Assembly: GCA_021292105.1 (NCBI GenBank)
Contig: CM037870.1
Coordinates: 13,673,234 to 13,737,233 of the forward strand
Direction: 5' to 3'
DNA length: 64,000 bases
Origin: Anadara kagoshimensis
Lineage: Eukaryota; Mollusca; Bivalvia; Arcoida; Arcidae
Each line of letters starts with the position of its first letter. The stretch's first letter is position 1. The notes under the pieces were generated by a model. The model did no database searches. It saw nothing but the letters and a program-made list of their open reading frames with translations, and was not told where the DNA came from. Below, one piece after another: positions 354 through 48,846 of this stretch. Made by a program: the position numbers and the translations under genes.

Positions 354-884
354 CTTTAAAATGAAATATACATGTAGTAAAATAATTTGAAGCTGAAATA
401 TATGTACATGGAAAACAATCTCGTTATAACGAAATACAAAGTCGTTTTAACGGGATGCTTAACGTTATAACTAGTGGAACGGATAACAGGTAAAATATTT
501 CACATCGAGATTACAGCATCAAAATTGGCATAAAGGTTCCTTATGTAGCAAATTATAAGAAGAGGTAGTTGGCCATCTCAAATTTTGAATGGCGTCATTA
601 AAAAAAAGTATTGTAATGTCCTCTGAGCAACTTGTAGTTCACTACAATTCACTACAACGTCACTCGTTATAACGATTTTTTCTCTATTTAGTTAAAATCA
701 TTGCAGATAAACATTGTTTACCAAAACTATTTGCTTCTAAAATACTTAAACTCTGAAAAAACAAAGTTATGATTCTACAATCATTCTAAGTGTCAGTTGA
801 TTTGGTAAAATACAATTTGGCACTTCAGTTTTTCTCATTCCATGATCTAAACATATTTGGATTCCAACAAATTTTGTCCAATTT
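354..884. other. Non-coding stretch with two CGTTATAACG palindromes
   Basis: No gene seen. The perfect 10-nt palindrome CGTTATAACG occurs at 422-431 and again at 664-673, each followed by similar AT-rich sequence. They could be the ends of an old miniature transposon, but no target duplication is visible. Confidence 0.3.
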
Positions 885-927
885 CTACTAATGAGGAATT
901 TTATTCCGAAACGACTGTTTAGTGCTA
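885..927 (+). ncRNA. Degenerate type I hammerhead ribozyme relic
   Basis: Visible parts in order: CTAATGA (core CTGATGA with one change), a helix II of GGAAT / ATTCC closed by TTT, the invariant GAAA, a tiny helix III (AC, loop GACT, GT), cleavage-site T, then TAGTGCT as the 3' strand of helix I. The 5' strand of helix I is eroded, so only about 3 bp remain. It shares the same consensus as 25650-25687 and 47277-47322. Probably inactive. Confidence 0.45.
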
Positions 928-1166
928 TATGTAATAATTTATTTCAATGTTCTAAAGAAAGATATAAAAATTTAAAAATATTTATGTTGTGTTGTTATAT
1001 GAGGAAAAAATCAGTAACATTATGTATATATTGAAGTTAGACTTACCATCTTGTATTTATAACAGTTCAATAATATGAAAGATAAGATATATATATTCAA
1101 AGTGTATTAAAAACCAGGTCAATAGGTGACATAAACCTGACCAGTCTTATCTTATAGACTGGCTGA

Positions 1167-1770: not shown

Positions 1771-2122
1771 CTGCGGTAGCTCAGTTGGTAGAGTGTTCGC
1801 TCCATAAGTGAGAGTACGTGGGTTCGAACCCCGACCGGGTCTGACCCAAGACTTGAAAGTGGGTAGTGACTGTTCTTTCGCGAAGCACTCGATATTTCGA
1901 AATGAAAGTCATGGTTCTTTCGGATGGGAACTTAACATAAACGAGGTCCCGTGTCATGGTTGGCGTGACACGAAAAAGAACCCTGCTGTATAATGCCATC
2001 AGCGCAATGCACAGACACAATCTTCGTCTATAGCTTGCGACGTCTTGATATAAGTGAAAATTCTTGACTGGGACGTTAAACACCATTACTCATGATCAAC
2101 TCAACTCAACTCAACTCAACTG
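1771..2122 (+). mobile_element. tRNA-derived SINE (family S1), full length
   Basis: A tRNA-like head (box A TAGCTCAGTTGGTAGAGTG; box B GGTTCGAACCC) is followed by a body with GGGTCTGACCCAAGACTTG and a 3' domain ending GGACGTTAAACACCATTACT, then a (CAACT)n tail. The flank before the head (TTTAACACCT) and the flank after the tail (TTTGACACCT) match in 9 of 10 positions, fitting an eroded target duplication. It is non-autonomous, with a Pol III-type internal promoter, and would be mobilised by a LINE. The 3' domain is widespread in mollusc SINEs. Confidence 0.85.
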
Positions 2123-2733: not shown

Positions 2734-3061
2734 AACCACTGCGGTAGCTCAGTTGGTAGAGTGGTCGCTCCGTAAGTGGGAGGTCGTGGGTTCGAACCCC
2801 GTCCGGGTCTGACCCAAGACATGAAAGTGGGTAGTGACTGTTCTTTCGCCAAGCACTCGGCGTCACGGTTCTTTCGGATGGGAACTTAAAATAAACGAGG
2901 TCCCGTGTCCCAGTATGTGTGGCACGATAAAGAACCCTGCTGCATAATGCCATAAGTGCAACGCACAGGCAAAATTTCTACACCTTCGCCTATAGCTGGC
3001 GACGTCTCGATATAAGTGAAATATTCTTGACTGGGACGTTAAACACCATTACTCAACTCAA
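2734..3061 (+). mobile_element. tRNA-derived SINE S1 with intact 13-bp target duplication
   Basis: Full-length copy with box A, box B (GGTTCGAACCC), body, GGGACGTTAAAC domain and ACTCAACTC tail. It is flanked on both sides by CTCGCCGCCTAGG (2721-2733 and 3062-3074), a perfect target-site duplication. The intact duplication marks it as one of the younger insertions here. Confidence 0.9.
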
Positions 3062-3185: not shown

Positions 3186-3317
3186 ACAACAGCAGCAACA
3201 ACCTGTTTTATTCGACATTGTTATATTTGTTACAATACATAACCCTTCAATATCATATTATGGTATTATTATTCCATTTATTCGTCGCTTTCTTAACATC
3301 GTATAAGTTAGTAAAGG

Positions 3318-4058
3318 TGTTGCTGGTGCTGCTGCTGCTGCTGATGATGGTGATGGTGGTGCTACTGCTGCTGATGATGATGATGGTGATGGTGGTGCTG
3401 CTGCTGCTGATGGTGATGGTGGTGGTGCTGATGATGATGATGATGGTGATGGTGATGGTGGTGCTGCTGCTGATGATGATGATGATGGTGATGGTGGTGC
3501 TGCTGCTGCTGATGGTGATGGTGATGGTGGTGCTGCTGCTGCTGCTGATGATGATGGTGATGGTGGTGGTGCTGCTGCTGATGATGATGGTGATGGTGGT
3601 GCTGCTGCTGCTGATGATGATGGTGATGGTGGTGCTGCTGCTGCTGATGGTGATGGTGGTGGTGCTGCTGATGATGATGATGGTGGTGGTGGTGGTGGTG
3701 CTGCTGCTGATGATGATGGTGGTGGTGGTGCTGCTGCTGCTGATGATGATGGTGATGGTGGTGGTGCTGCTGCTGATGATGATGATGGTGTTGCTGCTGG
3801 TGGTGGTGGTGGTGGTGGTGCTGCTGCTGCTGGTGGTGGTGGTGTTGCTGATGGTGGTAGAGGTGGTGGTGGTGGTAGTGGTGCTGGTGGTGGTGCTGAT
3901 GATGATGGTTGTGGTGGTGGTGGTGCTGCTGCTGATGATGGTGATGGTGGTGGTGGTGCTGCTGATGATGATGGTGGTGGTGGTGGTGGTGCTGCTGCTG
4001 CTGCTGGTGGTGGTGGTGGTGGTGCTGCTGCTGCTGCTGATGATGATGATGATGAGTA
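3318..4058. repeat. 740-bp compound trinucleotide microsatellite (GCT/GAT/GGT)
   Basis: An uninterrupted trinucleotide tract mixes GCT, GAT and GGT triplets in a loose higher-order order (several GCT, then GAT, then GGT) repeated about every 25-35 bases. All three plus-strand frames are depleted of stops, giving a false open frame of only V, L and M residues. The phase stays in threes, with few indels. Confidence 0.95.
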
Positions 4059-4482: not shown

Positions 4483-4837
4483 CAAGTAAGACAGCTGGCG
4501 AGTTCTCATTCAATAGTCATGTTTAAATACAATCCCCGTTTGATGTCTTGCAGAGAAAACTCGCTTCTTTTGCAGAACTAATTATCCCGTAATGTTCAAA
4601 TATTTTATATTTAAATTTTTTGCACGTCATGGTAATTTTGTAATATGGTTTTGAAATTAAATCTGGTTATTGTCACCCCAGGGAAGAGGTAATGAAAAAA
4701 CTATAAGGAGTCATTTAGGAATTTATAATTGGTATTTAGTAGTGATGATGATATTATTTAAAATTAAAAGAGTTTTAGCATATGTTTTAATCAACGTAGA
4801 CATATAACAGATACATACATGTACGTATATTTATTGT
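4483..4837. other. No feature recognised
   Basis: AT-rich sequence without gene-like open frames or known repeats. Confidence 0.5.
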
Positions 4838-16297: not shown

Positions 16298-16985
16298 AGA
16301 ATCAAAAACAAACATACTAATCCATTTCCGAATCACAATCCAGAAGCAAAGTAAAAACTTTGGGACTGACAAGTTAGGTTAGACACGTGAACTTCCACCA
16401 GGGAAGTGAGGCCGGGTGCTCCGGAAGGGTAAGCACCTCCTGTTTAGCTAGCTACACCCGTCACGTTTGTAATCAAAATTGTGTGAAAGGAACATGGAAC
16501 TAAGAGACGTCAAATATATCCAAGGCAATCCTGGACACAGAGACATGAAACTTATCAACAATACTGTGATGACGGCCATAAAACTTTTTGAGGGCCTTGA
16601 TAAGCCTAGGCTTGCAATATCCCCGAGTCAACAATTTATTTGCAAGCAGCCTACTTCGTTGTACAAAGTCCCCGTAGTGGGAACAAGCTCTACCATAGCG
16701 TATTAATTGGGAAACAAATACACCATAAGCAGGGGAAGCAGGTATATTGCTGCATAAAAAAGGAAAGTTGACAATAGAAAAATTGAAGTCATCACGTTTG
16801 TCATAAAGTTTTAAATGTAGCCTTTCCTGTGCGTCATAATTCAGGTATAAGTCTAAATATGAAGCAGAACTTGAGGAATCAGTCGTGTCTTTTATTTCAA
16901 GCTCACTAGGATAGATGACATTTACATAGTCTCCAAATTTAGGATTGTTAAGAGAACCTACTCTTCTCTGTGAAATGCCCACTCA
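16298..16985 (-). pseudogene. Element C: 5'-truncated reverse-transcriptase retroelement with 3' UTR
   Basis: A minus-strand open frame at 16500-16982 (160 codons) is the C-terminal part of a retroelement reverse transcriptase. It starts just after where the catalytic YxDD motif would be (SLNNPKFGDYVNVIYPSELE). It continues with the conserved SASYLDLYL and LYDKRDDFNFSIVNFPFLCS, then PAYGVFVSQLIRYGRACS, then LLANKLLTRGY and KKFYGRHHSIVDKFHVSVS. Frames of this type recur across corals, amphioxus and bivalves. The preceding codon is a stop, so finger and palm domains are missing and the copy is dead. The 3' UTR (16298-16499) carries GGTGTAGCTAGCTAAACAGG and ends TTAGTATGTTTGTTTTTGAT. Its clade (LINE or Penelope-like) cannot be fixed from this fragment. 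Several more 3' ends of the family occur in the window. Confidence 0.8.
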
Positions 16986-24536: not shown

Positions 24537-25649
24537 TCCTGACGAAGAAGCTGCTACAGATTTGGTAACTGTGCTTAGACTGAAAATGTCACTGTCTGTG
24601 GTTAAAATTAAGTCAAGGATATATTAACTACAAAAAAATAAAAGACAAAAGGCTAAATTCTCAGATTGTATCATCTAGTCGCCAACATCAATACATGTAT
24701 ATGAACTAATGAGCGTCAACATGCACATGATGGCGCCGGCAACAATATGCAGCCTAAAAACCACATACACATAATTATGTAATGATTCTCGAACAAATAA
24801 TGACTGTTATTTGCAACTTAAGTGGGACTGTTTTGTGGAAATCAAATACAAGCTTGTTTGTAACTACGCGAACTTAATTTTTTGTCTAGTGGACAGTTTC
24901 TATTTGTAAAATATGAAAACGTATAATAAAATTAACAGAAACGTACTAAATGAAATGAAAAGTAACAATCAATAAAGCAGATCGTTAAATCAATTATACA
25001 CCTAAGATATAAGATGTCTAGCCATTTATACCCCGGTCACAACAGGAAATGACGGACCCATATAGTTTTGATTGCACAATCATCACCACCTGTCTTGAGT
25101 TTACATATGTTTGGGGTGCAATTGTCTTAAAGACTGGTTATTGCTAGAAAACAATAAGAACAATATAAAAGTACACAAAAGAAAGTACATGAAATACGTT
25201 TTAAAGTCTCTTCTTAAGAAGTCCATACTTTTGTGAAACCGATAGTAATATGTGGAAGAAAACATATATTTACTGTGTTTAAATTTTCCATTAGGTGTTT
25301 GTGTATGGAAGATTCTGATTGATACAGAATAGTTTTTTTAAGATTCTAACGATGTCCAAATCAACACGGACAAATAAACCATTTCTGTAATGAAATGTGC
25401 AATCGTCACGTATATCACTGTTGAATCCGAACTCTATGTGGGAACTAGAATAATGTTTAAATATGTCTGCGTAGAGAAAAAACTTTCTATTGCTTCTGAA
25501 CAATACATCGTCATTTTCTAAATTTGCTGCTTGTTAAGATGTGAAATTCCTCAAATCTAAGCTTTACTCCATCATGCAAAGTATTTCCTTAGCTAAACGA
25601 GTAAAATATACTTTAATCTTTTGGTATTCTTTTCAACATCTTGAAAACA
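24537..25649. other. No repeat recognised; weak open frame
   Basis: The minus-strand frame 25291-25503 (extendable a few codons upstream) contains SHIEFGFNSDIRDDC and LFVRVDLDIVRILKKLFC. The composition is protein-like, but at this base composition open frames of this length are expected by chance. Confidence 0.3.
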
Positions 25650-25687
25650 AGCACTAACAATGAGGAATGCAACGACCGTCTAGTGCT
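25650..25687 (+). ncRNA. Hammerhead ribozyme relic with intact helix I
   Basis: AGCACTA and TAGTGCT form a perfect 7-bp helix I around a core with ATGAGGAAT, AACGACC and the cleavage triplet GTC. The CTGA part has become ACAA and the loop of helix II is deleted, so it should be inactive. The flanks (TTCTTTTCAACATCTTG before, TGTAAAATT after) match the copy at 47.3 kb. Confidence 0.5.
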
Positions 25688-25859
25688 GTAAAATTAAAAC
25701 TGGTTTAAAATATCTCATCTACACAATAAAAGAAGAACTGTGGGATTAGGAGAATTGTATTTCAATCCTAACATAAAGACAACGCATTAAAAGTTTTAAA
25801 AATAATGCAAATTCATGAAACGATGATATAATAGAAAAATACAGGCTTATAACTCTATA

Positions 25860-30381: not shown

Positions 30382-30683
30382 AGTTAAGTTAAAGTTAAAG
30401 TCTGTCCCGAGCCATTAGGCCCATCAGGCCGGAGCTTATCCCGGTTTCGGTGGCGTTAAGCGACTGAGAGTACAAGACTCTCTCCTGAATGGGACCCCGG
30501 TCCATCGCAGGGTTAACCCCCAACATTTTGCTGGTACTCATTTATTTTTCAGCTGAGTGAACTGGAACAACGCGAAATTAAGTGTCTTGCTCAAGGACAC
30601 AACACATCGCCCGGTCCAGGGATCGAACCTACGACCTTCGAATCATGAGTCCAACGCCTTAACCACTAGGCCACGCGCTTCCC
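30382..30683 (-). mobile_element. tRNA-derived SINE (family S3) with 11-bp target duplication
   Basis: On the minus strand: head GTGGCCTAGTGGTTAAGGCG (box A), GGTTCGATCCC (box B), then the conserved core GTGTCCTTGAGCAAGACACT and CAGTTCACTCAGCTG, and a 3' part with GCCTGATGGGCCTAATGG and a TTAACTTTAACTTAACT tail. GCTTACAGCTA flanks it on both sides (30371-30381 and 30684-30694). The core is shared by SINEs of many marine animals. Confidence 0.9.
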
Positions 30684-34225: not shown

Positions 34226-36390
34226 AACAAGAGGCCCATGGGCCTGATACGCTCACCTGATAACTAATGGCTAGCTGATAGATTTAAAGAACACATAAAA
34301 ACTAAACCCCAATGACTTTTTTCTTTACATCATGATAACCATTGTATCAATACCTACAACATTCTAATATACATGCCTATACAAAAAGATAATTAACCCT
34401 TTTGGTATTGTTTTGCTTCTGTGACCTTGACCTTTGAACCCATGACCTTTTTCTATACATCAAAATGATCGTTGTATCAATACTTACAACATTCTAATAT
34501 ACATGCCTATACACAAAGTTTATAGTTTTCGAAATAATTAACCATTTTGGTATTGTTTCACATCTGTGACCTTGACCTTTGAATTCATGTCTTTTTTCTA
34601 TACATCAACATGATCGTTATATCGATACCTACAACATTCTAATATACATGCCTATACAAAAAGTTTATAGTTTTCGAAATAATTAACCATTTTGGTATTG
34701 TTTCACATCTGTGACCTTGACCTTTGAATTCATGTCCTTTTTCTATACACCAAAATGATCGTTGTATCAATACCTACAACATTCTAATATACATGCCTAT
34801 ACAAAATGTTTATAGTTTTCGAGATAATTAACCATTTCGGTATTGTTTCGCATCTGTGACCTTGGCCTTTGAACCCATGACCTTTTTCTATACATCAAAA
34901 TGATCGTTGTATCGATACCTACAACATTCTAATATATATGCCTATACAAAATGTTTATAGTTTTCGAGATAATTAACCATTTCGGTATTGTTTCGAATCT
35001 GTGACCTTGACCTTTGAACCCAAGACCTTTTTCTATACATCAAAATGATCGTTGTATCGATACCTACAACATTCTAATATATATGCCTATACAAAATATT
35101 TATAGTTTTCGAGATAATTAACCATTTTGGTATTGTTTCGCATCTGTGACCTTGACCTTTGAACCCATGACCTTTTTCTATACATCAAAATGATAGTTGT
35201 ATCAATACCTACAACATTCTAATATACATGCCTATACAAAAAGTTCATAGTTTTCGAGATAATGAACCATTTCAGTATTGTTTCACATCTGTGACCTTGA
35301 CCTTTGAACCCATGACCTTTTTCTATACATCAAAATGATCGTTGTATCAATACCTACAACATTCTAATATACATGCCTATACAAAAAGTTTATAGTTTTC
35401 GAGATAATTAACCATTTCAGTATTGTTTCACATCTGTGACCTTTACCTTTGAACCCATGACCTTTTTCTATACATCAAAATGATCGTTGTATTAATACCT
35501 ACAACATTCTAATATATATGCCTATACAAAAAGTTTATAGTTTTCGAGATAATTAACCATTTCAGTATTGTTTCACATCTGTGACCTTGACCTTTGAACC
35601 TATGACCTTTTTCTATACACCAAAATGATCGTTGTATCAATACCTACAACATTCTAATATACATGCCTATACAAAATGTTTATAGTTTTCGAGATAATTA
35701 ACCATTTCGGTATTGTTTCGCATCTGTGACCTTGACCTTTGAACCCATGACCTTTTTCTATACATCAAAATGATAGTTGTATCGATACCTACAACATTCT
35801 AATATACATGCCTATACAAAAAGTTTATAGTTTTCGAGATAATAATTATAATCAGAGGTACAAAAAATTAGGTCACGACCTTCACAATCGACCTTGACCT
35901 CATTTTGAAGATATTAACAAGAAGATGTCAAAACTGAAAACCCCATGTCATTATCTGGTCAAATAGTCAAGTTATAACAATTTGAAGCTATTTTACGATT
36001 TTTTCAAAATTAAACGCAAAAACGCGTAACCTATTTTTTATCCGAATTTCACAAAATGAACAAACTATAGGCTTAAGACCCTAGAGAAGCCAAATATCAC
36101 ATCAGATTTTTTCTCCAATCAGTACTTTCGGAGAAGAAGATTTTTTAAGATTTTTGCACCCCTAGGTCACCTTGACCTAGTTATGGTAGCCATAGCAACG
36201 CCACGAACAAATCTGAATTGCACCAGCCCATATATACTTCTGACAAAGTTTCATTAAAAACTGTCCAGTAGTTTCAGAGGAGAAGTCGAAAATAGGTGTT
36301 AACGACGCACACACGCACACACGCACACACGCACATACACACGCTGCGCTATGCCATAAGCTCACATGACCTTCGGTCAGGTGAGCTAAA
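34226..36390 (+). mobile_element. Helitron/Helentron-like non-autonomous element (pearl-type) with tandem core
   Basis: The 5' end carries a perfect 14-nt palindrome AGGCCCATGGGCCT (34232-34245), then GCTCACCTGA (34251-34260), which is inverted at the 3' end as TCAGGTGAGC (36377-36386). The 3' end has a hairpin TGACC-TTC-GGTCA (36367-36379) followed by CTAA. The core is ten 145-bp tandem units (34421-35845). A unique segment with AAACTGTCCAGTAGTTTCAG follows, then a (CACACG)n microsatellite (36306-36350) just before the terminal hairpin. The plan of subterminal inverted repeats, tandem core, microsatellite and 3' hairpin matches the HINE class and bivalve pearl elements. No Rep/helicase is encoded, so it would move in trans. 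The exact class is inference from structure. Confidence 0.75.
34421..35845 (+). repeat. Ten 145-bp tandem units with nuclear-receptor-like motif
   Basis: GTGACCTTGACCTTTGAACC starts units at 34421, 34566, 34711, 34856, 35001, 35146, 35291, 35436, 35581 and 35726: exactly 145 bases every time, with only substitutions. A shortened unit precedes at about 34300. Each unit then has TTTTTCTATACATCAAAATG, TACCTACAACATTCTAATAT and GTTTATAGTTTTCGAGATAA. Length homogeneity implies recent unequal exchange or rolling-circle amplification. Confidence 0.95.
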
Positions 36391-44274: not shown

Positions 44275-45372
44275 AGGTCCTTAAAGCATGCATGTAGCTA
44301 TTGTACAAATGTGAGTTTATCTTTTTATACAGACCCAGCATGACATTTTCTATAATATGCTGATTTGCTCATTTATGAATACATTATTTTAGAGATGAAA
44401 TGAATACCGAATTTAGCGTTCGAATGCCACCAAAACTCTAATTTTGTATTCAAATATTTGTTCAGAGATCTACATACAATGTTTATAACAATTAAATAAA
44501 AAGCATATTCATCAAAGAAGCAATATTGATATATTCAAATTCAATGCTGATAGTTCGTCAGATTGCAAAATTAAAATAAAAATTATCATTAATTTTGAAT
44601 TATGTAAAGCTCACGTAACAGCAGATTGTCTTGCTTCAAAAACACAAATTGGTGTTGAAATCAATGAAAATCCCTCAGGTTGTGTGGAAAGAATTGGAAT
44701 TATCACAATATTTTATCATGTATTATTGATATGTTTAATCATATTCACAGTGTTCAATTATTAAATTTTGCTATTTTAATCTAATTATCATACACTTTGA
44801 TTTATGTAAAGCTAAAGTGACATCTTATCATAACGTCTTGTGTAAAAAAAAAATCATTACAATGATTATAAACAATTTAAAACCCTTATGTTATGTGTGA
44901 AAAGTTGCAAAGAAATTATGTGTATTGCAATATTTTATATAGTCAAGGTGTTACTTTATGAGAAATCACAATTAAAAACAAATTATCATTTAATTCGAAT
45001 TATGTTTCGCTCAAGTAAAAACATCATGTCTTGCTTCAAGAACACAAATCGGTGTTAAAATCAATGAAGTACCCCCAGGCTGTGTGGAAAAATTAGAATT
45101 GTTAAAATATTTAATCATGTATTATTAATATGTTTAATCATATTCACAGTGTTCATTTATTAAATTTTGCTATGAAAATAAAAATTTAATTTTCATATAT
45201 TTTGAATTACGAAAAGCGTGATTCAGTAACATCTGGTCATCATGTCTTGTTTTCAATGTTAAAAACAATGTAATACCCCGGTGATGTTAGGTGTAAACAG
45301 GTGGAAACAATTTATCACAATGTATCACATTGATACCTTTGTCAATACAAATTGTGTATGCTGTTATATTTG

Positions 45373-45982
45373 TGTCCTGCTTATGGTGTATTTGTTTCCC
45401 AATTAATACGCTATAGTAGACCTTATTCCCACTCCGGGGACTTTGTTCAACGAAGCAGGCTGCTTGCAAATAAATTGTTGACCATGGGATATTGCAAGTC
45501 CAGGGTTATCAAGGGTCTCAAAAAGTTTTATGGCCGTCATTACAGTATTGTTGATAAGTTTGATGTCTCTGTGTCAAGCATTGCCCTGGATATATGTGAC
45601 GTCTCATAGTTCCATGTTCCTTTCATACAATTTTTATTACACACTTGGTGGGTGTAGCTAGTCAAACAGGAGATGCTTATCCTTCCGGAGCATCAGGCCT
45701 CACTTCCCTGGTGGAAGTTCACGTGTCTAACGTAACTTGTCAGTTCCAAAATTTTATACTTTGCTTCTGGATTGTTATTCGAAAATGGATTAGTATGTTT
45801 GTTTTTGATTCGTTTTTATGTTTTAATTGTCATATGGTTTGTTGCTATTTTGGCATTATATCAAGTGGCTATTCAAAGTCTATAGTTATCTGGTATAACC
45901 TTGTGTTAATCTTGTTTTTTATGGTTGTTATTTCGTGTTCTTGGTTGCATAGGCTATTGCCATTACCTGTTTTATATAGTGT
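45373..45982 (+). pseudogene. Element C: truncated reverse-transcriptase tail and long 3' UTR
   Basis: The frame to 45609 reads PAYGVFVSQLIRYSRPYSHS, RSRLLANKLLTMGYCKSR and LKKFYGRHYSIVDKFDVSVS, the same C-terminus as the copy at 16.5 kb. Only about 80 codons remain. The 3' UTR begins with the shared GGTGTAGCTAGTCAAACAGG, GGAGCATCAGGCCTCACTTC and ATGTTTGTTTTTGATTCG. It extends about 190 bp further (TTATTTCGTGTTCTTGGTTG) and ends where MITE E begins. That distal UTR resembles the TGTTTCGTGTTTGTGGTTTC block of the surrounding array and of the 57.5-62.4 kb array. Confidence 0.8.
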
Positions 45983-46220
45983 CTGTTAGGTCCAAGTGGC
46001 ATAATCGCTTCTTCAACTCAGTGAACGCAAAGAAGCGAAGTTGCTAATATACGATGGTGAAGGAACGAAGTTGCGAAGATACGATGGCGAAGAAGTGACA
46101 GTACCATCGCCCTTTTGTCACCGCATCTTCGCAACTTCGCCATCGTATCTTCGCGATTTTGCTTCTTCGCGTTCAAGTCAAAGGAGCGAAGGAGCGAGAA
46201 TGCAAATTTGGCCCTAACAG
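45983..46220. mobile_element. MITE E with CTGTTAGG ends, GCGAAG-rich
   Basis: The left CTGTTAGGTCCAAGTGGCAT mirrors the right TGCAAATTTGGCCCTAACAG. The interior is full of GCGAAGATACGATGGCGAAG and its inverse, making a long imperfect hairpin. Confidence 0.75.
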
Positions 46221-46584
46221 AATACCATAGTTTTACATTATTTTGAAATATGTAAAGCTCGTTTACATTATTGTAGAATACCATTTAAAATATATTATTT
46301 GATATATTAACAGTGGTATATGACACCACAGAAAAAAAATTATATATTAATACTCAATATTATAAAAACAATTTGATACCCTCATGTCAGGTTTAAAAAG
46401 GTGAAAAAATATGTTTTAAATTATTCATAACTACGTCAAGGAGTGTGATGTCAATACACATTATGGATACTGGTATGGGCAAACAGCATTAACCTGTCCG
46501 CTTGACCTTTGATTGAATTATTCATAATGGACGAGTGAATTTAAGTAATAGGGATCGTGCGTGTATATTTCGATATATGATGTG

Positions 46585-46631
46585 AACACTAATCAGGGGC
46601 AATGTTGATATATATATGTCCGTCATGTGCT
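46585..46631 (+). ncRNA. Very degenerate hammerhead relic
   Basis: AACACTA at the left and GTC followed by ATGTGCT, then ATAAAATTAAATCTGG, occupy the same place in the ~692-bp unit as the better ribozyme at 47277. The catalytic core is not preserved. Confidence 0.3.
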
Positions 46632-47276
46632 ATAAAATTAAATCTGGTATAATATGTTATTACTTTCATATAAAAATCGTCACAGTGTTTGTTGCTAAAC
46701 TTTCCATGGCTACCTTTTTGTTAAATCGAATATCTATCCAAAGTAAGGGATTATGAGGTATTAACTTGTGCTTGTCTTGTCTTGTTTGAATGCTGTTTCG
46801 TGTTTGTGGTTTCTTTGGCTAATTGCAAGTGAATGGGCTTTGGCTAGAAATTGTTTAATCTGCTTCAACAATACACATCATGAGAAAATATAAAACCACA
46901 AATACGCTAATGAAAATAGCAATATCGTCATATGCAAATTTATTGTAAAAATAAAATAGATTATTTGAAAATTAGTATATACTTTAACTTTTATTGTGTT
47001 CATTCATGAAAACCAAATTGCCAAATGCTCAAGTAACATCATCACAACTTGACTTAGAAAAATAATTTATTGCTAAATCAATGTTTTACCCCCCTGTCAG
47101 GTGGTGAATATTACGTGTATTGCATTATTTTATATTTTTCTTACCTTTGTCAACGCACACTATGGATGTTATTATATTATTAGTTATTTTGGTCAAATAT
47201 ATTTTGGTCCGTTGGGTTTCTTTTCAACATCTTGGTTTCATAATTTTTACAGTTTTGGTTTCATAAATTTGGTCCG

Positions 47277-47322
47277 AGCACTTCTGATGAGGGATTGTAT
47301 TCCGGAACGACCGTCTGGTGCT
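47277..47322 (+). ncRNA. Type I hammerhead ribozyme motif, one core change
   Basis: AGCACTT (helix I 5' strand), an exact CTGATGA (47284-47290), helix II GGGAT/ATTCC with loop TGT, GGA in place of GAA, mini helix III AC/GT with loop GACC, cleavage triplet GTC, and TGGTGCT (helix I 3' strand, six pairs including one G-U). The GAA to GGA change should weaken or abolish cleavage. Type I hammerheads with tiny helix III are known from Penelope-like elements and animal retrozymes. Confidence 0.65.
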
Positions 47323-47961
47323 GTAAAATTGAACCTTGTATATAATGTAATTATTTTCATATTAAATCGTCACAGGGTTTGTTGCTACAAATGTCTATGG
47401 CTACCTTTTTTGTGAAATCGAGTGCCCGTCCAAAGTAAAGTGTTATGTGGTATTAACAAGTGTTCATCTTGTCTTGAATAAATGTTGTTTCATGCTCTTG
47501 GTTCCTTTGGCTAATGGGAAGTGCGTGGGTTTTAGCTAGAAACTGTTTAATCTGCTATAACAATACACATAATAAGAAAATATAAAACCACAAAGAGGCT
47601 AATGAAAATAGATGTATTGTCATATGCCAATTTTTTGGTTAAAATGAAATAGATTTTTTAAAAAAAAAAATGCAGATGACATTATTGGTACATGTACATG
47701 TATATTTAAACTTAAGCTTATGACAAGTGTATTGGTTATTGGTTTTGGCAAGAGAGTGTTTAATCCGCCACAAAAAGAACATATTAAACCACAAATCGCC
47801 TAATAGCTGTCATATGCCATTGTTTTAAATTTTATAAAATACATTATTTGAAATTAGCACATGGCAGTATTTATATACATGTATTTAAACATATTTCGTG
47901 TTCATCCATCAAAACCAAATTGTCAAAAACTCGACAGTAATATCATCACGTCTTGATTCTA

Positions 47962-48302
47962 TGGTGACTTATTTCTGATATCGACATAATTTTGGTCAAC
48001 ATAAAATTATCTCGACCTGTTGACTTAATATCACGACAAGTTGAAATAATATCATGGAATGTTGAGATAGTATAATAAAAAGTAGAGATAAATGATAGGG
48101 CATGTTGAGATACTTATGTCGACTAGTCATGCTAAATATCTCGACATAAGTATCTCGACATGCCCTGTTATTTATCTCATTTTTTTTATTTTACTATCAC
48201 AACTTTCCATCATATTATCTTGACTTGCCGTGGTATTAGGTGAAGATGTCGAGATAATTTTGTGTCGATCGAACTTTTATGGATGTCAGAAATAAGCCAC
48301 CA
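47962..48302. mobile_element. MITE G: 341-bp fold-back element with TA duplication
   Basis: TGGTGACTTATTTCTGATAT at the left is the inverse of GATGTCAGAAATAAGCCACC at the right, with TA on each side (47960-47961 and 48303-48304). Inner arms (ATCTCGACATAAGTATCTCG region and its inverse) pair too, so most of the element is palindromic. Confidence 0.85.
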
Positions 48303-48480
48303 TATGATTCGTAAAAATAATTTTATTGCTAAAAGAATGTAATACCCTCATGTCAGATGTAACAAGGTGGAAAGAATCATGTATATTACAATATATATAT
48401 ATATATAATATCCATACGTATGTCAACTATAGTGTTATACCAATACACATTATGAATACTGGTACATATTAAAATCGTCA

Positions 48481-48846
48481 TAAGGTTTTGATGCTATATT
48501 GCTATATTTCCATGGTAAGATCTAATAAATTTCACCATGTTGCAATAACTTGTAGTTTTATTAAATAACTTCGGGGAATAAAAACTATTAAATTGACTTT
48601 TCCTCGTATTTTCTCAGATTTCCGTCAAACCAAATGAGACCTGGTTTCCGGTTACCAGAAGCGGCTGAATAATATATTTTATAAGATATTTTATTACCTG
48701 TATAAATGAAACTTTTTTAACAACCTCCAACATCATGTCATTTTGTGAGATATTTCACTTTCTTATGGATTGAACCTTTTTTTTAACAAACTCCAAGTTT
48801 ACATAGCCGCATGTTATATTGCAAACTGGCTGTAAGAAAGTAGCAA
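48481..48846. other. No feature recognised
   Basis: AT-rich spacer. Confidence 0.5.

Follow-up and report, generated by a model that had tools for sequence, protein, structure and literature searches.

A retrozyme and a Penelope-like element inserted into an old tandem array of Anadara kagoshimensis, and the usual 3′ end of retrozyme copies

Introduction

Metazoan non-LTR retrozymes, as portrayed in the portions of PMC7229834 drawn on here, are non-coding tandem repeats of a few hundred base pairs with a type I hammerhead, a low GC content and thousands of copies. Retrozymes occur as dimers to large multimers, and for Mytilus the same portions give about 5,000 hammerheads (Cervera and de la Pena 2020, PMC7229834). 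In Penelope-like elements (PLEs) of the Penelope/Poseidon type, the hammerhead lies shortly upstream of an internal start of reverse transcription, and the ends of insertions follow this start and not the ribozyme cut, according to the sections used of Frangieh et al. 2024 (PMC11167929). These sections also document internal initiation by a PLE in vitro and place the main start site of the PLE PAc 111-118 bp into the ORF and its cut 26 bp into the ORF (PMC11167929).

Here we analyse a 64-kb stretch of Anadara kagoshimensis DNA (the window), in which an old local array houses two neighbouring elements of known kinds, a retrozyme and a PLE. An earlier note on this DNA had joined the two by proposing that the PLE, termed element C, carries the hammerhead. 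The more useful part of the present work is the end pattern of retrozyme copies in this genome, which hints at how such elements copy themselves and offers a way to look for the partner element.

Results

A model (R1) derived from 24 different hammerheads of another contig of this genome, C1, was run over both strands of the window and detected a hammerhead-like motif at 47269-47330 of the plus strand (76.6 bits, E 4.9e-17); E-values of R1 are rough, since the model was short-calibrated. We rejected a chance origin of the motif on this value. Judged by sequence, it is homologous to the type I hammerheads of animal retrozymes and has a helix III of 2 bp, as had been proposed for 47277-47322, although its core is no longer intact. 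An A to G exchange at 47305 damages the GAAA core box and converts CCGAAAC of the family consensus to CCGGAAC; apart from this lesion and five other differences, 56 of 62 letters agree with the consensus. The motif lies in one of three decayed retrozyme insertions of the window:

47180-47352, plus strand: 5′-truncated retrozyme insertion of 173 bp, 83% identical to the 339-bp retrozyme array unit
47269-47330, plus strand: type I hammerhead homologue, helix III of 2 bp, detected by R1, core lesion 47305 A>G
797-934, plus strand: second decayed retrozyme insertion, hammerhead at 873-934 (53.6 bits)
25502-25711, plus strand: third decayed retrozyme insertion, hammerhead at 25642-25695 (38.6 bits)

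The first insertion covers 0.48 of the 339-bp unit, from unit position 214 to 37, where position 1 is the base after the hammerhead cleavage site. The window hammerhead can thus be assigned to a single decayed copy of a small mobile element that is very common in this genome.

At gathering thresholds, Rfam reported no hammerhead in the window or in eight retrozyme loci, and none in 44300-48700 at E-values up to 10. At a lax threshold, RF00163 matched three 339-bp units with 15.4 bits (E 1.9; cutoff 34). The hammerhead is therefore identified by its core pattern, by R1 as a model of the family itself and by copy number, and not by an Rfam call. Free-energy folding of single strands of 60 to 62 nt gave z-scores of −0.62, 0.40 and 0.70. 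Helix covariation in the 24 hammerhead sequences, which are very alike, was not above that in shuffles; 94.3% of their helix cells were paired compared to at most 48.7% when the partners were slid.

An equivalent decayed hammerhead had been suspected at 46585-46631. With R1 run over 1.1 kb, this stretch reached 6.8 bits (E 1.1), and its direct alignment to 47277-47322 scored 14, which was equalled by 1 of 2000 simple shuffles. The part before 46620 is unremarkable alone (264 of 2000 shuffles as good), and no core was detected by R1 upstream of the following stretch, which stands out (0 of 2000 shuffles as good; blastn 88%, E 2.9e-10 to the retrozyme unit):

46620-46661, plus strand: remnant of the retrozyme 3′ part, from the hammerhead's last bases to unit position 37, in the first 692-bp-spaced repeat (blastn, shuffles)

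By homology, the second motif is what is left of a retrozyme 3′ part; its kinship with the first motif was seen correctly, the equivalent core was not recovered. The spacing of 692 bp itself was confirmed as a repeat of 231 nt at 81% identity, present in two copies. Three parts of the array were delimited:

44570-45220, plus strand: proximal part of the array with a periodicity of about 200/400 bp
46715-46945, plus strand: first copy of the 692-bp-spaced repeat
47407-47637, plus strand: second copy of the 692-bp-spaced repeat

Genome-wide, a query with 44570-44980 gave five matches at two loci (here and C14:12.627 Mb), and one with 47380-47640 gave three (two here, one at the paralogous locus), in a DNA search that skips very common words, so that a missing match does not show rarity. 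Queries of similar kind yielded far more, with 3,324 first-look candidates for the retrozyme, queried with the window copy, and 5,399 for the 5′ part of element C. We rejected the array as a family of hammerhead elements: within the reach of this search, both tested segments are confined to two loci and are not dispersed or amplified with a hammerhead. The supposed head-to-tail series of hammerhead elements is better described as an array with retrozyme and element C fragments inserted into it.

The element C fragment had been reported as reverse transcriptase (RT) sequence followed by a long 3′ UTR, together spanning 45373-45982. Indeed, tblastn identified a C-terminal RT fragment at 45352-45606 that shares 79% of 85 residues with the copy at 16503-16982, and similarity at the DNA level begins at 45376 (91%). 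In 21 of the 22 other loci compared with locus L034, element C ends at L034 4750-4759 (the exception, L029, at 4719), about 200 bp after the last codon, which maps to 45809-45811 in the window. Five other window copies, aligned over greater lengths, also lose the match at 45807-45811. Thus, the RT C-terminus stands, the UTR stops at this point, and the sequence beyond it belongs to the array, which explains its likeness to the array unit:

45376-45811, plus strand: 5′-truncated element C insertion with the RT C-terminus to 45606, a stop codon at 45607-45609 and a 3′ UTR to about 45809-45811 (tblastn, DNA alignment)
45812-45982, plus strand: array sequence that resumes beyond the element C insertion (from mapping of the element C 3′ end)
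16299-16982, minus strand: better-preserved 5′-truncated element C copy, used as query (alignment)

Taken together, the region appears to be a degenerate tandem array, locus-specific and low in copy number, into which two retroelements inserted separately, the retrozyme at 47180-47352 and element C from 45376 to about 45811.

Element C is abundant, with 68,620 first-look candidates, the best 150 of which scored 96-99% identity. The L034 locus contains a frame of 1067 residues (L034:1351-4551) that combines a GIY-YIG domain (residues 203-292; E 1.7e-4, 22.2 bits, cutoff 22.6) and an RT domain (residues 814-917; RVT_1, E 2e-4, 21.6 bits, cutoff 29.6), neither of which reaches its Pfam cutoff; two other element C proteins, both 5′-truncated, showed RVT_1 only. 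The first 48 or so residues of the frame precede the 5′ end of element C at L034:1497; among 39 further copies scored, 22 begin at L034:1497 or 1498. The presence of RT and GIY-YIG in one ORF identifies element C as Penelope-like by domain content, in agreement with the earlier note. Craig et al. reportedly described Naiad-type PLEs with an N-terminal GIY-YIG in 2021, and Naiads are not known to carry hammerheads. In element C, too, GIY-YIG lies N-terminal to RT, and this domain order points to a Naiad-type placement.

A hammerhead inside element C was rejected on the evidence of R1 and Rfam in the copies examined. Neither R1, applied to the full-length copy at L034:1497-4753, nor Rfam at E-values up to 10 on L034:1400-4850 revealed one, and all eight R1 hits in 23 element C loci (in five of them) lay outside the element C copies. 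In the one copy read at full length, no hammerhead was found within the element or a pseudo-LTR. Full-length copies without a hammerhead had been named beforehand as the observation that would speak against a hammerhead-bearing element C, and this is what was observed in the copies seen. It is scarcely credible, then, that element C is the autonomous partner with a hammerhead and that the array arose as a head-to-tail series of non-autonomous derivatives of it, since decayed. The Penelope-like nature of element C, the hammerheads of other PLE clades (in the sections used of PMC11167929) and the similar places that the two elements occupy in separate array units, as judged by eye from the flanks, would favour such an arrangement; besides the missing hammerhead, the two-locus distribution of the tested array segments and the spacing between the two elements argue against it. 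Retrozyme ends were no nearer to element C 3′ ends than expected from random placement, with 3 of 61 within 30 bp compared to a null mean of 2.5 (P 0.46). The proposed pairing of this RT with the hammerhead is not supported.

The same numbers bear on a looser relationship, in which the Penelope-like protein of element C mobilises the retrozyme in trans though itself lacking a hammerhead. In favour of it, no other young RT element encountered here is as abundant as element C, its copies too are truncated variably at the 5′ side while their 3′ end is fixed, and both elements sit at matching places in different array units. Nevertheless, comparison by eye revealed no clear 3′-end sequence common to the two elements and their proximity does not exceed chance, which makes a role of element C in trans rather improbable. 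The first base after the end of element C is usually T (22 of 23 loci), unlike the bases after the retrozyme end; as the T may still belong to element C as its final base, the difference in flanks counts for little and was set aside.

Elsewhere in the genome, the hammerhead occurs in tandem arrays of a 339-bp unit with up to 11.55 units, for instance 11.5 copies at 99% identity. Exact hammerhead cores number 7,180 (3570 and 3610 on the two strands) compared to 8 and 0 for a reversed control pattern. The unit has a GC content of 0.342 and a longest stop-free run of 61 amino acids in three tandem units. By its conserved type I core with three helices, its length within the range of 150-450 bp, its arrangement from dimers to large multimers and its low-GC, non-coding sequence, the family can be classed as a metazoan non-LTR retrozyme of a kind known from other animals, of which the window copy is a single fragment with a damaged core. 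A second hammerhead variant was found at L080 and L081, inside a larger repeated stretch.

The 3′ ends of insertions were determined in a non-random sample, 30 loci being the first core-pattern hits on C1 and the rest having been chosen by similarity to the window copy or by nearness to element C. Where an alignment began or stopped within 80 bp of a locus end, it was left out; 9 of 70 rows were removed because their right flank recurred, a step that handles overlaps among the 53 sources. First-look genome rows were not used for this purpose because the query leaves the retrozyme at 47352. Among the resulting 61 distinct insertions, 40 end at unit positions 35-41; for those of 90% identity or more, the figure is 24 of 27. 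No insertion ends within 3 nt of the cleavage site. For uniformly and independently distributed 3′ ends, the chance that some 7-nt bin collects 40 of the 61 would be about 1e-49. The 5′ starts are spread over unit positions 28-331, though not uniformly (KS p 0.0025). Thirteen insertions exceed one unit and 48 are shorter; all six with two or more units end at positions 35-40. Seven of the 21 ends outside 35-41 cluster at 17-21 and may reflect a second start site or decay. The copies examined thus display a usual 3′ end, variable 5′ ends, passage across the cleavage junction and multi-unit arrays. New among these features is the usual retrozyme 3′ end 35-41 nt past the cleavage site in combination with variable 5′ ends, which points to a defined start site of reverse transcription.

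Target-site duplications above chance were not found among the insertions, except at L055 (28 bp); a repeat of 11 or more occurred at 3 of 27 young insertions compared to 2.8% of mismatched pairs. Target priming is thus putative here.

Amplification of the hammerhead repeats as satellite DNA by unequal exchange, with no RNA intermediate, would be in line with the near-identical units within some arrays (L010, 1.000; L009, 0.998; L011, 0.998), yet we consider it very improbable. It predicts neither dispersed sub-unit fragments, to which 48 of the 61 copies belong, nor a common 3′ end with variable 5′ ends, and the cores are about equally frequent on both strands. Mean identity is 0.997 within and 0.982 between arrays, a gap for which one divergent array (L043, 0.988 within) is largely responsible; L013 reached 0.984 within, and L009 and L010 are 0.996 identical to each other. 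Higher identity within than between arrays lends weak support to arrays made in one event, as unequal exchange could give the same pattern.

Discussion

The best explanation of the whole, to which we assign a probability of about 0.8, is a degenerate local array that received two separate insertions, one of them a retrozyme copied from an internal site. The 3′-end pattern would fit copying by an RT that starts at one defined place within an RNA with an intact cleavage junction, a mode of initiation documented in vitro for a PLE (PMC11167929). Genomic retrozyme copies would be transcribed and the RNA cut by the type I hammerhead; by analogy to published animal retrozymes, the ends would be rejoined to circles, or uncut multimers would persist. 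An RT from another element, most likely a Penelope-like one, would then act in trans and start copying at the fixed site about 37 nt past the cleavage site. It would cross the sealed junction, sometimes go through several rounds of the template and stop at a variable point, which would give the insertions a constant 3′ end and differing 5′ ends and, in a few cases, produce arrays of about 5 to 11.5 units. Three parts of this scheme are inferences: the RNA circle, the identity of the partner enzyme and target priming.

A competing origin of the fixed 3′ end is the end of the transcript itself, a termination or processing site from which copying would begin at the terminus and not internally. 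Priming on a defined RNA terminus is compatible with the fixed end taken alone, and the retrozyme 3′ end lies in AT-rich sequence. Units in arrays, however, run past the site and were copied through it, even though all six multi-unit insertions end there, and the expected hammerhead product ends at the cleavage site, where none of the 61 insertions stops. We therefore regard a transcript end as rather unlikely. A multimeric transcript stopping at position 37 would be compatible with both of these points.

Extending internal initiation beyond this genome is tentative and stands at somewhat less than an even chance: a Penelope-like RT may copy animal retrozymes, with circles or uncut multimers of their RNA as template and a fixed start inside the unit about 37 nt beyond the cut, one event may write 5 to 11 units, and the hammerhead may serve to make the circle rather than the end of the copy. 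If initiation is indeed internal, the thousands of copies present here would allow the partner to be found by matching tails.

Compared with the described systems, the Anadara family resembles metazoan retrozymes, as represented in the portions used of PMC7229834, in being tandem, non-coding and low in GC, with a type I hammerhead and thousands of copies. It is distinguished by its 339-bp unit and its 7,180 exact cores and adds a documented usual 3′ end about 37 nt past the cut, a description of which we did not find in those portions of PMC7229834. Element C resembles Naiad-type PLEs in the GIY-YIG preceding RT, in its very high copy number, in head-to-tail neighbours, here about 17-18 bp apart, and in that no hammerhead was found. 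With the Penelope/Poseidon PLEs that carry a hammerhead and a 'tail', as far as they are covered by the sections used of PMC11167929, the retrozyme shares a hammerhead shortly upstream of a putative internal RT start and tandem or partial-tandem copies whose ends would track this start and not the cut; unlike these elements, it is without an ORF and ends about 37 nt past the cut.

Results

A hammerhead in the window and its family

The window occupies G000:C14:13673234-13737233 of a genome of 1.115 Gb in 36 contigs. A covariance model, R1, was derived from 24 distinct hammerheads of this genome, all from a contig other than that of the window. In the window it matched 47269-47330 with 76.6 bits (E 4.9e-17), confirming as real the main hammerhead motif of the earlier note. 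Six of the 62 positions of this copy depart from the family consensus. One of these changes, 47305 A>G, sits in the GAAA box, and on grounds of hammerhead biochemistry the copy is therefore probably inactive. Four of the six differences are A to G (47276, 47293, 47305 and 47317), too few to judge, and A-to-I editing of the retrozyme RNA is a conceivable origin. Two further R1 matches, absent from the earlier note, lie at 873-934 and 25642-25695, giving three hammerheads in the 64-kb window. A second, 'equivalent decayed' hammerhead had been proposed at 46585-46631. As a hammerhead it reached just 6.8 bits with R1 (E 1.1); its homology rests on 46620-46661, which resembles the retrozyme as well as the copy downstream. 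Rfam at its own cutoff did not call the hammerhead motif; on three 339-bp units, RF00163 scored 15.4 bits against a cutoff of 34.

A strict hammerhead core pattern had 3570+3610 matches genome-wide, compared with 8+0 for the reversed pattern. Many of the core copies reside in non-coding 339-bp retrozyme units (GC 0.342, stop-free runs of at most 61 aa), some in near-perfect arrays such as 11.5 copies at 99% on contig C4. The hammerhead at 47269-47330 belongs to a fragment of one unit, 173 bp long and reaching from 214 to 37, position 1 being the base after the cleavage site. Another hammerhead variant, distinguished by its stem II, occurs inside a larger repeated stretch (G000:C1:12444557, 13227824 and 13228811; loci L080 and L081), of which L080 has two tandem copies at a spacing of about 985 bp.

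Most retrozyme insertions share a 3′ end

Retrozyme ends were mapped in 53 sources, the window and 52 partly overlapping loci, where 70 alignments had enough flanking sequence at either end and 61 insertions were left once repeated flanks had been removed. The 3′ end fell at unit positions 35-41 in 40 of the 61 insertions, and in 24 of the 27 that were at least 90% identical; seven of the 61 ended at positions 17-21, and none within 3 nt of the cleavage site. The 5′ starts were spread over positions 28-331, though not uniformly (KS p 0.0025), and lengths ranged from 0.17 to 11.55 units, exceeding one unit in 13/61. The sample was not random: 30 loci were the first core-pattern matches on contig C1, 17 were picked up by their resemblance to the window copy and five were element C loci with a nearby hammerhead, so that coreless copies are under-represented. 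Such bias alone does not set the 3′ end at 37, since copies ending anywhere past the core could also be found. Target-site duplications were not above chance at these insertions, except at locus L055 (28 bp).

Mean identity of retrozyme units was 0.997 within arrays and 0.982 between different arrays. This weakly suggests that each array may have been copied from a single template, weakly because much of the gap is owed to a single divergent array, and because units in two of the arrays are not especially uniform (0.984 and 0.988).

Element C carries no hammerhead in the copies read

Element C, a Penelope-like element, encodes GIY-YIG (residues 203-292) followed by reverse transcriptase (814-917) in one 1067-aa frame, with Pfam scores under the curated cutoffs (22.2 versus 22.6 and 21.6 versus 29.6 bits, respectively). 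This domain order is that of Naiad-type Penelope-like elements. Relative to the reference copy L034, the 3′ end lies at 4750-4759 in 21 of 22 loci compared, about 200 bp past the last codon; of 39 further copies scored over the 5′ part, 21 begin at 1497 and one at 1498. The element is thus about 3,257 bp long. Head-to-tail neighbours occur at G000:C6:12264453-12268185 and C10:6758783-6762507, where the coordinates place the 5′ end of the following copy about 17-18 bp past the 3′ end of the preceding one.

Neither R1 nor Rfam found a hammerhead in the single full-length copy read, and all eight R1 hammerheads across 23 element C loci, located in five of them, lay outside the element's extents. 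For the copies read, this refutes, by the earlier note's own test, its proposal that element C may itself be a hammerhead element. Its copy within the array runs from 45376 to about 45809-45811; thus 45812-45982, previously assigned to its UTR, is array sequence.

The local array and other repeats

The tandem array around these insertions had been proposed as a series of hammerhead units. Against this, segment 44570-44980 was matched five times and 47380-47640 three times, all at one pair of loci, in a genome DNA search that skips very common words yet returned thousands of candidates for retrozyme and element C. The paralogous array locus, some 1.09 Mb from this one on the same contig, also carries a retrozyme copy, whose right flank matches that in the window and whose core lesion differs. 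The retrozyme insertion is therefore probably older than the separation of the two loci.

Further features of the array and the window are:

46020-46190, GAAGAAGCGAAGTTGCGAAG-type palindrome within the array
47960-48304, nested palindrome whose outer arms (122 nt) are 81% and inner arms (46 nt) 87% identical; contains a sub-cutoff Rfam mir-7131 match (48095-48170)
1774-1837 (+), 2742-2805 (+) and 30612-30675 (-), tRNA-like, just above the Rfam cutoff
34387-35843, satellite with 10 copies of a 145-bp unit at 94%
3316-4051, minisatellite with a 33-bp unit made up of GGT/GAT/GCT-type triplets, open in several frames

The nested palindrome looks like a MITE-type element, and the paralogous locus likewise has an inverted repeat (L012 2139-2476). 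The first of the tRNA-like stretches overlaps a 112/218-bp tandem repeat (1378-1829), and this overlap suggests that they are SINE heads.

Discussion

A copy with an intact hammerhead and the following 37 nt must stem from an RNA that either had not been cut at the cleavage junction or had been resealed there. The best reading of the insertion ends is that a circular or multimeric retrozyme RNA would serve as template, that reverse transcription would begin at a fixed internal site and that copying would halt at variable 5′ points. PMC11167929 describes internal initiation in vitro by a purified Penelope-like protein, at sites where its insertions in the genome also end.

The partner of animal retrozymes is left open in PMC7229834 and PMC7761336, where PLEs are a strong candidate. 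Element C is an abundant candidate here. It is suggestive that one retrozyme and one copy of element C inserted at matching places of different array units. Comparison by eye revealed no 3′ tail common to both, and element C copies were no closer to retrozymes than chance.

What we regard as new is the 3′ end at which insertions of animal retrozymes usually stop; its description was not found in the literature searched, supplements and many subscription papers aside, and may be in print. The feature in the window is of a known kind, and decayed. The 339-bp family shows the anatomy of animal non-LTR retrozymes as set out in PMC7229834, which reports thousands of copies in a mussel.
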